Below the pieces are notes generated by a model. The model saw only the letters and a program-made list of their open reading frames with translations, ran no database searches and was not told where the DNA came from. The position numbers and the translations under genes were made by a program. Positions 2,777 to 11,259 of a DNA stretch of 24,455 nt are shown here, piece by piece. How positions within the stretch are numbered: position 1 is the first letter of the stretch; every line of letters starts with the position of its first letter. Origin of the DNA: a virus. The stretch lies in IMG/VR virus record IMGVR_UViG_3300009165_000037, positions 1 to 24,455 of that record; one strand, written 5' to 3'.

Positions 2777-3604
2777 ATGGCAGCAAACTTTATCCAAGAA
2801 GAAGAACTGTTTAATGGCAGTGAGCAAGAAGAAGTACAAGACATTACAACCCCAGTCCCTGACTCAACTGGAGCAGGGCAAGCTGAAGCGGCTGGTGTCA
2901 GTGAACAAGTAGAAGAATTACCAGAGAAGTATCGTGGTAAGTCGGCTATTGAGATTGCTAAGATGCACCAAGAAGCTGAGAAGCTCATCGGTCGTCAAGC
3001 AAACGAAGTTCACGAAGTACGGAGTCTTGCAGACCAGCTCTTAAAACAACAACTCGAAAGCAAGGCTAGAGAAGCAAAGCCGATTGAAGAATCGCTTGAA
3101 GATGACTTTTTTGCAGACCCAACCAGTGCGGTCAACAGACAAGTAGAGAAGCACCCTGCAGTACTTGAAGCAAGACAAGCAGCACTCGAAATGAAGCGCA
3201 TGAAGACAGCACAACAGTTGTCTACCAAGCACCCAGACTTCGCCACTATCGCATCCGATGCTGGTTTCCAAGATTGGGTAAAGTCTTCAGCTATTCGACT
3301 AAACTTGTTTGCCAAAGCTGATGCTGAATTTGATTTTGAATCCGCTGATGAATTGTTAAGCACTTACAAAGAGCTAAAGCAAATCAAACAACAGAATCAA
3401 AATGTCCAATCAGCCGCAGTAGAAAGCAAAGCTCAAGAACAAGCAATGCGTGCAGCTACAGTCGATGTTGGTGGTGCTGGCGAATCAAGCCGAAAGGTGT
3501 ATCGTAGAGCAGACCTAATTAAACTGAAGATGACGGACCCAGACCGTTATATGCAAATGTCCGATGAAATCATGGACGCATATGCATCAGGGCGAGTTAA
3601 GTAA
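2777..3604 (+). CDS. Capsid scaffolding protein
   Basis: A 275-residue, highly charged protein rich in Glu, Gln, Ala and Lys, with ATG at 2777 and AGGAGA at 2765-2770. It has an acidic disordered N-terminus (EEEELFNGSEQEEVQ), long helical segments with coiled-coil character (about residues 70-140 and 190-235), and a basic helical C-terminus (YRRADLIKLKMTDPDRY, then MDAYASGRVK). A basic helical C-terminus is what scaffolds use to bind coat protein. The position immediately upstream of the major capsid gene is the usual one. It would direct procapsid assembly and then leave the head. The assignment rests on composition, size and synteny rather than on a sharp motif. Confidence 0.8.
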   Translation: MAANFIQEEELFNGSEQEEVQDITTPVPDSTGAGQAEAAGVSEQVEELPEKYRGKSAIEIAKMHQEAEKLIGRQANEVHEVRSLADQLLKQQLESKAREAKPIEESLEDDFFADPTSAVNRQVEKHPAVLEARQAALEMKRMKTAQQLSTKHPDFATIASDAGFQDWVKSSAIRLNLFAKADAEFDFESADELLSTYKELKQIKQQNQNVQSAAVESKAQEQAMRAATVDVGGAGESSRKVYRRADLIKLKMTDPDRYMQMSDEIMDAYASGRVK

Positions 3605-3635: not shown

Positions 3636-4598
3636 ATGGCATTAGCAAAAGTAGCATACCCCGGCGGTAGTACTTCTATCGTTAACAACACCAATGCAGC
3701 AGTATTCATTCCAGAAATTTGGAGTGACGAAGTCATCGCTGCTTACAAGAAAAACCTCGTATTGGCAAACCTTGTTCGCAAGATGTCTTTCAAAGGTAAG
3801 AAAGGTGATACCCTCCACATTCCTAAGCCAACTCGTGGCACAGCAACCGCTAAAGCAGCTAACACTGCCGTAACGATTCAAGCTGACACCGAGACAGAAG
3901 TTCAGGTTTTGGTAAACAAGCACTTCGAGTACTCACGTTTCATCGAGGACATCACCGAAGTTCAGGCTTTGGCATCGCTCCGTTCTTTCTACACGGAAGA
4001 CGCTGGTTACGCCTTGGCTAAACAAGTTGATGACGAACTCATCGCCTTGGGCAAGTCTTTTGGTAACAGCGACGGCGCTGACTGGGTACACAGCAATTCG
4101 TACTACATCGACGGTACTTCAGGTTTGACAGCTTACGCTGTTGACACTGTAGCTGCTGCTGACGTATTCACCGATGCTGGTTTCCGTAAGCTCATCCAGT
4201 TGATGGACGACGCTGACGTACCAATGGATGGTCGTAAGTTTGCGATTCCTCCTTCACTGCGTAACGCAATCATGGGTATTGACCGTTACAACAGCCGTGA
4301 CTTCGTTGATGCACGTGGCGTTCAAAACGGTCAAATCGGTAATCTGTATGGTATCGACATTTTCGTATCAAGCAATATGCCTACGATTGAAACTGCTGAT
4401 GATAATACCGCTGGCGACGCAGTTAAAGCCGCAATGCTTTTCCATACCGACACAATGGTATTGGCAGAGCAGTTAGGTGTTCGTTCACAGACTCAATACA
4501 AGCAAGATTACTTGGCTACTCTTTACACTGCCGACACATTGTTCGGTGTTAAAGTTGTACGTCCAGAAGCTGGTTTCGTATTGGCTGTAAACGCCTAA
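3636..4598 (+). CDS. Major capsid protein (HK97-fold)
   Basis: A 320-residue protein with ATG at 3636 and a strong AAAGGA at 3622-3627. It begins with a short arm (ALAKVAYPGG), then FIPEIWSDEVIAAYKKNLVLANLVR, which is typical of podovirus coat proteins just before the capsid core. Beta-rich segments follow (DTLHIPKP, FEYSRFIEDITEVQ), then an alpha-rich domain (AKQVDDELIALG) and the late motif FAIPPSLRNAIMGIDRY; it ends VVRPEAGFVLAVNA. Length and features match T7/P-SSP7-class HK97-fold coat proteins. The gene is closed by a strong terminator, fitting a highly expressed capsid operon. It has no proteolysed prohead domain, consistent with the separate scaffold upstream. Confidence 0.92.
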   Translation: MALAKVAYPGGSTSIVNNTNAAVFIPEIWSDEVIAAYKKNLVLANLVRKMSFKGKKGDTLHIPKPTRGTATAKAANTAVTIQADTETEVQVLVNKHFEYSRFIEDITEVQALASLRSFYTEDAGYALAKQVDDELIALGKSFGNSDGADWVHSNSYYIDGTSGLTAYAVDTVAAADVFTDAGFRKLIQLMDDADVPMDGRKFAIPPSLRNAIMGIDRYNSRDFVDARGVQNGQIGNLYGIDIFVSSNMPTIETADDNTAGDAVKAAMLFHTDTMVLAEQLGVRSQTQYKQDYLATLYTADTLFGVKVVRPEAGFVLAVNA

Positions 4599-8388: not shown

Positions 8389-9446
8389 GTTTAATTCTTA
8401 ACGGTACAGACGGTTTATCCGATGTAGACGGTACAGCAGCTACCCCTGCAATACGAGGTACTGACACTAATACAGGTATTTTCTTTCCAGCCGCAGATAC
8501 GATTGCGTTCTCTGAAGGCGGTACAGAGGCAATGCGTATTGATTCTGATGGTGATGTTGGAATAGGAACAACCAGTCCTGCTGTAAAACTAGATGTAAAT
8601 AGAAATGGTGAAGGTGAATACCTACGGGCAGGTGGTGACGATACAGGAAATAATGGCAGAGCGTTACGATTTACTAGCTCAACAGGTGGTGGATTTATTG
8701 GAGCAATGCACACCTTAAATGCTCCATCATCAGGCGGTACGATTGCTTTTGCTACTAACTCTACAGAACGGATGCGTATCCACTCTAGTGGTAATGTGAC
8801 AATCGGAAAAACTGCAATAGACTCGGCAACTGCTGGCTGTCTATTTCTTGCTGCTGGAGAAGGTGTATTTGTAACAAACGGAGCTGAACCTTTAACTTTA
8901 AATAGAAATACAAATGATGGAACTATTGTTTCTTTAAGGCAAGGTGATGTTCAAGAAGGTTCTATTTCCGTATCAGGAACTACTGTTTCTTACAACGGCG
9001 GTCACTTATCTCGCTGGTCGCAACTTCTTGACGGTTCTAAAGATGACGCAATTCTAAAAGGAACTGTACTGTCTAACCTTGACGATATGTGCGTTTGGGA
9101 AAAAGACGGTGTAGTTGCAGACAACGAACAGCTAAACAAGATGAAAGTATCAGATGTAGAAGGAGATACTAATGTTGCTGGTGTGTTTGTAAACTGGACT
9201 AGAGATGAAGATTGCAACAGCGATGACATGAATATTGCTATGACAGGCGATATGATTATCCGTATTGCAGACAGTGTTGTAGTACAGAAGGGCGATTTGT
9301 TAATGTCTGCTGGTGACGGTACTGCCAAACCACAAGGCGATGATATTGTTCGCAGTAAGACAATCGCTAAAGTAACTTCAAACTATGTAACTTGCACATA
9401 CGAAGACGGTTCTTATTGCGTACCTTGCGTACTAATGGCTTGCTAA
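8385..9446 (+). CDS. Tail spike/fibre with Peptidase G2-like C-terminal domain
   Basis: A 353-residue protein with ATG at 8385. The N-terminal 70 residues (SLILNGTDGLSDVDGTAATP, then TNTGIFFPAADTIAFSEGG and GDVGIGTTSPAVKLDV) form a series of short beta-repeats found in many environmental phage fibres. A second copy-like stretch (SGNVTIGKTAIDS) follows near residue 140. From about residue 205 (LSRWSQLLDGSKD, then GTVLSNLDDMCVW) the protein resembles the Peptidase G2/intramolecular-chaperone type domain of pre-neck appendage and spike proteins. In that family the domain helps trimer folding and may cleave itself off. The final residues YCVPCVLMAC include three cysteines, unusual for a phage fibre. 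Assignment of self-cleavage is inference from family knowledge. Confidence 0.75.
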   Translation: MSLILNGTDGLSDVDGTAATPAIRGTDTNTGIFFPAADTIAFSEGGTEAMRIDSDGDVGIGTTSPAVKLDVNRNGEGEYLRAGGDDTGNNGRALRFTSSTGGGFIGAMHTLNAPSSGGTIAFATNSTERMRIHSSGNVTIGKTAIDSATAGCLFLAAGEGVFVTNGAEPLTLNRNTNDGTIVSLRQGDVQEGSISVSGTTVSYNGGHLSRWSQLLDGSKDDAILKGTVLSNLDDMCVWEKDGVVADNEQLNKMKVSDVEGDTNVAGVFVNWTRDEDCNSDDMNIAMTGDMIIRIADSVVVQKGDLLMSAGDGTAKPQGDDIVRSKTIAKVTSNYVTCTYEDGSYCVPCVLMAC

Positions 9447-9457
9447 GAAAGCGTAAG

Positions 9458-9664
9458 ATGAACGAAATTAATCCTATAGAGTACGGTAAGTTAGTACAGT
9501 CAGTAGATAACCTAGAGCGTAAGGTGGATGCTTTAGAAGTAGACATCAAGAAGTTAGTGGCTATGGCAGAACGTAGTAAAGGTTCTCTATGGGCTTTGAT
9601 GGGTGTTGCCTCAGTTGCTGGTGCTTTCATCAGTTATGTTTCAGAGATGGTATTTAGGAAGTAA
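9458..9664 (+). CDS. Small coiled-coil membrane protein, XhlA/holin-accessory-like
   Basis: A 68-residue protein. I place the start at ATG 9458, just after the fibre stop codon, rather than at an in-frame ATG at 9392, which would lie inside the fibre gene and add a basic segment. Residues about 8-40 form a heptad-like amphipathic helix (LVQSVDNLERKVDALEVDIKKL), and residues about 44-62 form one hydrophobic membrane segment (SLWALMGVASVAGAFISYV). This coiled coil plus single C-terminal membrane anchor is the layout of XhlA-type haemolysin/lysis accessory proteins. It is far from the other lysis genes at 17915-19060, so a tail-associated membrane role is also possible. Confidence 0.7.
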   Translation: MNEINPIEYGKLVQSVDNLERKVDALEVDIKKLVAMAERSKGSLWALMGVASVAGAFISYVSEMVFRK

Positions 9665-10016: not shown

Positions 10017-10028
10017 TAGGAGATTATT

Positions 10029-10163
10029 ATGCCCATGGTCAAAGACAAGAAGTTCCCATATACAGCTAAAGGTAAAAAAGAAGCTAAAGAGTATGCCAAG
10101 AAGACTAACAGTCCTATGAAGGCTAAACCAGCTAAGAAGATGGGTTCTAAGCGTGGCTACTAA
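10029..10163 (+). CDS. Lysine-rich mini-protein (44 aa)
   Basis: A 44-residue ORF with ATG at 10029 and a good AGGAGA at 10018-10023. It contains 14 Lys and 1 Arg (about one third basic), with few hydrophobic residues: the beginning is MPMVKDKKFPYTAKGKKEAK and the end MGSKRGY. Composition resembles small DNA-binding or histone-H1-like tails. It is the first of three basic ORFs in a row and overlaps the second by 11 bases. The strong ribosome-binding site and tight packing support real expression. The function is unknown; DNA condensation, head-internal packing or RNA binding are all possible. Confidence 0.72.
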   Translation: MPMVKDKKFPYTAKGKKEAKEYAKKTNSPMKAKPAKKMGSKRGY

Positions 10164-10308
10164 ACCGGGCTTGTACGCAAATATTTCTGCAAAGCGTCAG
10201 CGTATTAAGGCTGGCTCAGGCGAGAAGATGCGTAAAGTAGGCGCTAAAGGTGCTCCTAGTGCTTCTGACTTCAAAGACGCTGCTAAGACCGCTAAGAAGA
10301 AGAAGTAA
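10153..10308 (+). CDS. Lysine-rich mini-protein (51 aa), GTG start
   Basis: A 51-residue ORF starting at GTG 10153, inside the end of the previous mini-gene, and ending with TAA 10306-10308 that overlaps the next ATG by one base. The sequence ATKPGLYANISAKRQRIKAG and the continuation SGEKMRKVGAKGAPS match a small protein I remember as recurrent in tailed-phage genomes (pattern KPGLYANI.AKR.RI..GSGEKMRK.G.KGAP). It holds 12 Lys and 3 Arg and ends in four Lys. The conserved GLYANI and GSGEKMRK segments indicate a real domain, not random basic sequence. Function unknown; partner proteins are likely its two basic neighbours. Confidence 0.8.
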   Translation: MATKPGLYANISAKRQRIKAGSGEKMRKVGAKGAPSASDFKDAAKTAKKKK

Positions 10309-10553
10309 TGCCTAAGAAATCCTTTCAGAACCCTGAAGGTGGACTCAATCAGAAGGGCAGAGACTACTACAACAAGAAGACTGGTTCTAAGCTCAAGCCG
10401 CCAGTGTCTGCTAAAGAGGCTGCAAAGTCGCCTAAAGCGGCTGCACGTCGCAAGAGTTTCTGCGCTAGGATGGGCGGTGTTGCTGGTCCAATGAAGGATG
10501 AAAAGGGTCGTCCAACCCGTAAAGCCTTAGCATTAAAAAAGTGGGACTGTTGA
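10308..10553 (+). CDS. Basic small protein, DUF6321-like
   Basis: An 81-residue protein with ATG at 10308 in a TAATG overlap with the previous gene. The C-terminal half is highly characteristic: RRKSFCARMGGVAGPMKDEK, then GRPTRKALALKKWDC. I associate this with the DUF6321 family of phage proteins. The N-terminal half (FQNPEGGLNQKGRDYYNKKT) is also a recognisable conserved block. There are 16 Lys and 6 Arg. Cys52 and the terminal Cys81 are conserved in the pattern as I know it and could form a disulphide or metal site. The function has not been established as far as I know. Operon position suggests a virion or DNA-packing role. Confidence 0.8.
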   Translation: MPKKSFQNPEGGLNQKGRDYYNKKTGSKLKPPVSAKEAAKSPKAAARRKSFCARMGGVAGPMKDEKGRPTRKALALKKWDC

Positions 10554-10564
10554 GCAAATAATGC

Positions 10565-10593
10565 TTGCAATTTACGTAAAAGTATGATAAACT
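10565..10593 (+). promoter_or_regulatory. Sigma70-like promoter with extended -10
   Basis: TTGCAA (10565-10570), a 17-base spacer and TAAACT (10588-10593) with TG at 10585-10586. It lies in the 49-base gap before the adaptor gene. From GCTTG to the -10 it has the same length as the element at 2158-2186 and shares CAATTTA just after the -35, which raises confidence that both are used. The individual hexamers are weaker than in the first promoter. Confidence 0.5.
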
Positions 10594-10602
10594 GGTAAAA
10601 AT

Positions 10603-11259
10603 ATGGCATCTAAAAACTACTTAGAACTAACAAACGATGTGTTAATACGACTGCGTGAGCCAGAGGCTTCCTCAGTATCGGATAACGCCTATGTAAAGCT
10701 GATTGCACGCTACATTAACGATTCTAAGCGTCAGGTTGAGGATGCTTACAACTGGAACGCATTATCAGAGACATTGTCTGCTGTGACTGGTTCAGACATC
10801 TTTAACTATGTCTTAGAAGGCACAGGTCAACGCTTTCGTGTAATTGATGTGTTGAATGACACTAGCAATTTCGTAATGCGAAATGCCACGACTCGTTGGA
10901 TGAACGACCAGTTCTTAATCGCTAGTCCCGCTAAAGGTTCTCCTTATTACTATAACTTTAACGGCACAAACAGTGACGGCGACACTCAGGTAGATTTATA
11001 CCCTATCCCTAATGGTGTGTACAACATTCGATTTAACGTGATTCGTCCACAAGTTGAGCTAGTTGCTAACTCGGATAAATTATTAGTTCCGCATGAGCCT
11101 GTTGTCTTAGGAGCACTAGCACGAGCACAGGCAGAGCGTGGTGAAGACGGTGGTGTACAGTCTGCTGAGACTTATGCACTGTTTAAGCAAAGTCTTGCTG
11201 ACGCTATTGGTTTAGAGTCTGCTAGGTACTTTGAAGAAGAAGCGTGGTATCCCATCTAA
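10603..11259 (+). CDS. Head-tail adaptor protein (SU10 adaptor / gp11-like)
   Basis: A 218-residue protein with ATG at 10603. The N-terminus ASKNYLELTNDVLIRLREPE, followed by YVKLIARYINDSKRQVEDAYNWNAL, is the typical helical start of podovirus adaptors that sit under the portal ring. A beta-rich middle (FNYVLEGTGQRFRVIDVLND, DTQVDLYPIPNGVYNIRFNV) and a helical C-terminus (PVVLGALARAQAERGED) follow. In the virion twelve copies connect the portal to the nozzle. The stop codon overlaps the ATG of the nozzle gene by one base, the expected partner. The promoter just upstream would allow separate control of the tail genes. Confidence 0.85.
   Translation: MASKNYLELTNDVLIRLREPEASSVSDNAYVKLIARYINDSKRQVEDAYNWNALSETLSAVTGSDIFNYVLEGTGQRFRVIDVLNDTSNFVMRNATTRWMNDQFLIASPAKGSPYYYNFNGTNSDGDTQVDLYPIPNGVYNIRFNVIRPQVELVANSDKLLVPHEPVVLGALARAQAERGEDGGVQSAETYALFKQSLADAIGLESARYFEEEAWYPI

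Follow-up and report, generated by a model that had tools for sequence, protein, structure and literature searches.

Paired families of small basic proteins in phage head gene clusters and their possible role in head filling

Introduction

Two genes encoding small, strongly basic proteins, here called gene 2 and gene 3, form a true pair in phage genomes, and the subtype of one member is matched to the subtype of the other. They lie in a virus record of 24,455 bases (IMG/VR record IMGVR_UViG_3300009165_000037), which is referred to over its whole length as the window, where they follow a third Lys-rich mini-gene, gene 1, that belongs to the module loosely. Both protein families are already known by name only; added here are their pairing, the matching of their subtypes, the co-variation of two cysteines, the position in head gene clusters and the links to virions and to a DNA ligase. 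We tentatively favour, with slightly less than even confidence, the explanation that the two products are partners that bind nucleic acid during or after head filling and that some copies stay in the virion. Both families are very abundant in phages, many of them aquatic, and these findings make it possible to test directly what has long been a puzzle of marine phage genomes. If the explanation is true, a DNA-handling module is widespread in aquatic phages.

Coordinates, charge and selection

The three genes are all encoded on the + strand of the window. Gene 1 (10029..10163; ATG start) encodes a Lys-rich protein of 44 amino acids and has a Shine-Dalgarno-like AGGAG on the same strand (10018..10022), 6 bases 5' of its ATG. 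It is followed by gene 2 (10153..10308; GTG start), encoding a basic protein of 51 amino acids, and by gene 3 (10308..10553; ATG start), encoding a basic protein of 81 amino acids that contains the cysteines Cys52 and Cys81. The initial annotation had described three chained open reading frames (ORFs) of 44, 51 and 81 residues, each product with roughly 27-34% Lys+Arg, and the sequence agrees in all respects: genes 1 and 2 overlap by 11 bases, genes 2 and 3 by 1 base, and the measured Lys+Arg contents are 34.1, 29.4 and 27.2%, respectively. The strong positive charge expected of DNA-condensing proteins is found in all three products, with net charges of +12, +12 and +16 and pI values of 10.3-10.7, compared to net charges from -32 to +5 for the remaining 21 of the 24 ORFs measured on the late strand of the window.

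For pairs of sequences differing by 3-30%, the median pairwise dN/dS is 0.150 for gene 1 (285 pairs), 0.099 for gene 2 (2630 pairs) and 0.074 for gene 3 (2001 pairs), and because of these values we conclude that genes 1-3 are real genes under selection. The alignment of gene 2 contains 14 invariant columns in 63 rows at a mean column identity of 70%, and that of gene 3 contains 8 invariant columns in 73 rows at a mean column identity of 49%. The sequence blocks highlighted earlier in the products of genes 2 and 3 are therefore both present and conserved; they had been regarded as lacking a known role, and gene 3 turns out to be an already named Pfam domain.

Families and abundance

This domain, DUF6321 (PF19846), is matched by residues 7-79 of gene 3 (E 2.2e-28), with a score of 99.1 bits compared to a curated cut-off of 28.5. 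The match covers the whole domain; no function is described for the family, and no discussion of DUF6321 was found in the open-licence literature. Gene 2 is a full-length member of phrog_16028 (residues 3-50 of 51 aligned to 2-49 of 50; E 1.6e-25), and gene 1 matches phrog_33179 weakly (E 4.2e-4); none of these PHROG families carries a functional annotation. No curated family of NCBIfam was matched, and an assignment to defence or counter-defence genes was dropped, as no PADLOC match was obtained.

Among 2.9 million viral contigs scanned, at least 537 relatives of gene 3 and at least 596 relatives of gene 2 were confirmed. A search of 50,697 phage records with the gene-3 consensus found DUF6321 in 480 of them, almost all of which belong to phages infecting aquatic bacteria, with cyanophages in the majority, and the gene-2 consensus found 79 of the 50,697 records; a search of the phage records with gene 1 gave no match. 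The cultured phages P-SCSP1u, HTVC168P and KBS-P-1A carry both gene 2 and gene 3, as does S-TIP37, a cyanophage amenable to engineering. In CRP-810 and S-B28, a gene 2 homologue of 50 amino acids (L172:3495-3653 and L173:3504-3653) is labelled "ribonucleotide reductase A subunit", and a similar ribonucleotide reductase label overlaps the gene 2 match in WH11-B and 7B11-B; this label is probably an annotation error. A candidate link of gene 3 to gp50 of CRP-810 was unsupported (hhalign probability 0.7%).

Genes 2 and 3 as a pair

Linkage was counted in the best 80 loci per seed, which are a mutually related and non-random sample, many of them ending at contig edges, with domain profiles built from the same loci in which the domains were then counted. 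Within this sample, 69 of the 80 gene-2 loci contain gene 3 on the same strand within 1 kb and 2 contain it further off, and it is missing from 8 with room on both sides and from 1 at a contig edge. Conversely, gene 2 lies within 1 kb on the same strand in 53/80 gene-3 loci and is missing from 19 with room and from 8 at a contig edge. The order of the two genes is variable, with gene 2 located upstream of 67 and downstream of 58 of the 161 gene-3 domains that carry the cysteines (Cys-type). In one locus (L276) the two are naturally fused, gene 2 followed by gene 3 in a single frame, and the profiles phrog_11180 and phrog_28131 each match both gene 2 and gene 3 domains.

The pairing extends to subtypes. 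Type A of gene 2 is found within 1 kb of 125/161 Cys-type gene-3 domains and type B of none of the 161, with neither type near the other 36. For the 83 gene-3 domains without cysteines (Cys-less), type B lies within 1 kb in 30 cases, type A in 4 and neither in 49. Type B corresponds to phrog_25774, which keeps the GLYANI start and differs in its tail, and which apparently partners the Cys-less form of DUF6321 in place of phrog_16028. Since the loci were seeded and are related to each other, the matching of subtypes reports co-inheritance and not yet contact.

Gene 1 is attached less firmly, being present within 1 kb in 36/80 gene-3 loci and in 7/80 gene-2 loci among the best 80 per seed. The proposal of a single module thus holds for genes 2 and 3, judged by linkage, occurrence in both orders, fusion and matched subtypes, and is weak for gene 1 as a family; a suggested survey of co-occurrence and order likewise finds the former two together, in either order, and the linkage of gene 1 loose. 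Other Lys/Arg-rich mini-ORFs occur within 600 bases of the pair in 57/80, 49/76 and 50/80 loci, at a density of 0.64-0.96 per kb near the pair compared to 0.05-0.06 per kb in the remainder of these loci. A basic mini-protein family of the pattern MPLxKS...KQAVAIA adjoins genes 2 and 3 in many loci (e.g., L090, L093 and L010), and its copy at L006:6159-6311 belongs to phrog_2423.

Position in head gene clusters

The + strand of the window encodes a portal protein (148-2148), a likely scaffold protein (2777-3604) and the major capsid protein (3636-4598), followed by fibre-like genes, the three mini-genes, an adaptor and further tail or internal genes. Just upstream of the mini-genes, positions 9422-9664 encode a protein of 80 amino acids that probably forms a coiled coil and has a hydrophobic C-terminal stretch, which has no good family match and which we take to resemble a small holin-type membrane protein. 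The downstream neighbour, located outside of the module (10603..11259, + strand), is a head-tail adaptor of the SU10 type (PF24175, E 1.4e-13). The module had been placed between tail genes; its position among virion genes is borne out, and with an adaptor as its neighbour it abuts the connector and does not simply lie among tail genes. Gene 3 and the adaptor are separated by 49 bases, which contain a perfect palindrome, TTTACGTAAA (10571-10580). The segment 10572-10593 was considered as a repeated promoter and rejected, as the window holds one copy and no exact match was found in 171 loci except in L001, which is the window itself.

In the related loci, head and packaging genes were labelled by comparison with a small number of references, drawn from annotated records and from the window. 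With these labels, the adaptor is the closest labelled downstream gene in 55/80 window-like (gene-3) loci. For gene-2 loci the closest labelled gene is the terminase upstream (52/76) and the portal downstream (38/76), and for Cys-less loci the same two genes are found in 49/80 and 66/80, respectively. A same-strand head or packaging gene lies within 1 kb in 56/80 window-like loci (25.1 upon random placement inside the same loci), in 57/76 gene-2 loci (28.5 upon random placement) and in 72/80 Cys-less loci (59.4 upon random placement, a modest contrast). The median gap to the portal is -6 bases (71 Cys-less loci) and that to the adaptor is 27 bases (56 loci). As expected of internal head proteins, the genes are hence encoded in head and packaging clusters.

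This also applies to cultured phages, in which the order is scaffold-[gene 2-gene 3]-capsid in HTVC168P, scaffold-hli-[gene 3-gene 2]-psbA-capsid in KBS-P-1A and capsid-[gene 3-gene 2]-adaptor in P-SCSP1u, and in which gene 3 is located immediately 5' of the head-tail connector in MEP301. Exceptions outside of head clusters are gp164 of Ma-LMM01, which lies among helicase genes, a Vibrio phage and HTVC034P. In Syn5 and P-SSP7, the structural regions examined contain neither gene 2 nor gene 3, which means that a T7-like head can be built without the module.

The tight placement at portal and adaptor also fits with the main rival to a role in head filling, namely that the pair serves as a cofactor of assembly or packaging which binds portal, adaptor, scaffold or terminase instead of DNA, acts while the head is being built and leaves before maturation. 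Their strict conservation, together with a predicted fold, points to a specific surface on the proteins, and as the other head proteins are acidic, basic partners would fit them. We consider this reading unlikely, yet worth serious consideration: gene 2 also forms part of a DNA ligase and occurs on chromosomes away from head clusters, and long relatives of gene 3 are reported from two virion preparations, as described in the following section.

Links to virions

Cyanomyoviruses have DUF6321 at the C-terminus of a longer protein that is mostly basic and is encoded soon after the terminase small subunit gp16 (T4-GC119; e.g., SSM1_115 of S-SM1, recorded as hypothetical protein, and gp114 of Syn9). 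These proteins share with gene 3 the C-terminal DUF6321 and its context near gp16, and they differ from the stand-alone 81-aa protein in being multi-module basic proteins of 443-495 amino acids; the gene 2 domain was not found in them. ORF137 of S-CREM2 ends in DUF6321 (E 3.5e-10) and is acidic overall (net charge -20), unlike the other DUF6321-tailed proteins of cyanomyoviruses. It is contained in the mass-spectrometric virion list with 4 unique peptides and a coverage of 4.1% (Table 3 of PMC10665884). The gene directly 5' of it, ORF136 (L170:3802-4515), encodes a basic protein of 237 amino acids (net charge +23), and the same virion list reports it with 8 unique peptides (PMC10665884). ORF29 of S-SCSM1 has a C-terminal DUF6321 (E 3e-22) and is labelled "virion protein" in its record, a label that would reflect mass-spectrometric detection, the available sections of the study reporting 45 proteins in virions (PMC9602691). 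In the same record (L256, L257), this label is also given to a translational repressor and to an NMN adenylyltransferase. The DUF6321 protein of S-SZBM1, SSZBM1_192, is absent from the 30 virion proteins in Table 1 of PMC9146016, as would be expected of a cofactor that leaves before maturation.

As judged from these tables, available sections and records, the long DUF6321-tailed forms, as distinct from the stand-alone pair, are virion-positive in two of three cyanophage proteomes (S-CREM2 and S-SCSM1, not S-SZBM1). The suggestion of virion or internal head proteins gains indirect support from the former two and none from the latter, and the internal-head idea is plausible. In the available parts of the P-SCSP1u and P-SSP7 papers, no virion mass spectrometry was found. 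For the window's proteins, fully tryptic peptides of 7-30 amino acids number none for gene 1, two for gene 2 and three for gene 3, so that most of the gene 2/3 pair would escape trypsin-based detection.

Bacterial copies and the link to DNA

When 84,980 species genomes were searched with gene 2, 56 loci were obtained, and gene 3 is likewise present in 14 of them. Several of the 56 loci contain a terminase or portal gene and therefore look like phage or prophage, unlike some others. Residues 736-782 of a 783-aa frame in Ramlibacter pallidus form the gene 2 domain, and the body of this frame is the ligase and primase-polymerase of LigD. No stop lies between the parts, and an in-frame methionine 5' of the gene 2 domain makes its separate initiation possible. 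This frame is one case among the 56 loci. A Lys-rich tail comes after gene 2 in Variovorax KK3, where the adjoining gene is similar to beta-glucosidases. Four genomes with gene 2 outside of phage-like loci carry one copy each, and gene 2 is present in 4/200 genomes of the Ramlibacter family. In this one case, the simplest role for a basic domain appended to a DNA ligase would be to add affinity for DNA. DNA binding is our best guess for genes 2 and 3, and it gains from the presence of gene 2 on a bacterial DNA ligase.

It had been stated that homologues occurring apart in unrelated gene contexts would argue against the module. Such homologues exist as a minority, comprising the ligase, the Variovorax copy, gp164 of Ma-LMM01 and the Vibrio phage. 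The copies outside of head clusters in Ma-LMM01, the Vibrio phage and HTVC034P could also point to proteins that act on the host ribosome, RNA or nucleoid, either delivered with the virion or made late, and that are encoded in the head cluster only for strong expression. Ribosome- and RNA-binding proteins are typically small, strongly charged and strictly conserved, and the pair fits this description in size, charge and conservation. A host target nevertheless appears rather improbable to us, as the labelled neighbours are mostly terminase, portal, capsid or adaptor and as neither sequence nor fold matches any solved protein.

Predicted structure and cysteines

The model of gene 3 has four helices (mean pLDDT 90.7, pTM 0.71) and that of gene 2 has two (pLDDT 83.2, pTM 0.57). 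A comparison of the single gene 3 model with the PDB by Foldseek and VIA-align returned no chain at E <=0.001 and none at Z >=2, the gene 2 model matched no solved structure, and no solved relatives of either protein were found at useful scores by sequence or fold. In a viral structure library, the best 10 models share the fold of gene 3 with TM values of 0.82-0.94 and most of them are named DUF6321; close relatives other than DUF6321 proteins were not found there. Gene 3 is thus predicted to be a small, folded, helical basic domain that has no match in the PDB, and the missing match is no proof of a new fold.

Among 244 gene-3 domains, 161 contain both cysteines, 83 contain neither and 0 contain exactly one; at 80% redundancy the classes comprise 37 with both and 12 with neither. 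As a single seed search contributed 80 of the 83 Cys-less domains, these counts cover few independent losses. The Cys pair may form a disulfide or a shared metal site. Forms of DUF6321 with four cysteines near the C-terminus, found in Ma-LMM01 (L168:3965-4228) and S-CREM2 (L170:4550-6022), would suit a metal site.

The early suggestion of DNA-condensing proteins is not supported where charge alone is meant, as gene 2 is nearly invariant, so that more than charge is needed, and as gene 3 is predicted to be folded with a co-varying Cys pair. That the products are plain, protamine-like charge neutralisers of which composition alone matters is accordingly very improbable, and for genes 2 and 3 pure action of this kind is rejected in view of conservation (14 invariant columns in 63 rows; 8 in 73), a confident predicted fold and matched subtypes; for gene 1 only, the slot of which is taken in other loci by unrelated Lys/Arg-rich mini-proteins enriched near the pair, it is plausible.

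Proposed function and comparison with known systems

In the explanation that we favour, the products of genes 2 and 3 would be partners in an accessory module for head filling, and their synthesis would be coordinated with that of the connector (adaptor or portal). Gene 3 would be a small folded basic domain that is stabilised in most lineages by its Cys pair, and gene 2 a short basic helical peptide whose sequence is strictly kept. Together they may bind nucleic acid, the likeliest target being the phage genome when it is at the portal or past it, and the virion may retain some of the copies. Gene 1 and the other Lys/Arg-rich mini-proteins could be interchangeable basic helpers from the same operon. 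A bolder and, in our judgement, doubtful version is a two-protein DNA-handling module with a PDB-unmatched predicted fold and an oxidisable Cys pair, which loads at the portal and rides in the head, and the small subunit of which bacteria acquired to serve as a DNA-binding tail, in one instance that of the NHEJ ligase LigD. Overall, the observation made in the initial annotation is confirmed and its interpretation is partly supported.

The internal head proteins of T4 and the ejection proteins of podophages are products of genes grouped with those of the virion and reside in the head, and this is the likeness proposed for genes 2 and 3; no link to them emerged from the general sequence and fold searches. 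Another comparison is offered by the ascovirus protein P64, a basic viral protein for which, according to the available parts of the study, condensation of the genome for its encapsidation was both proposed and tested (PMC6163548). P64 is a protein of 64 kDa from an insect virus, and as gene 3 has no Pfam match other than DUF6321 at E values up to 1, no homology is claimed. What it shares with the proposed function of the pair is being a basic viral DNA condenser, and as such it provides a model of how genes 2 and 3 might work.
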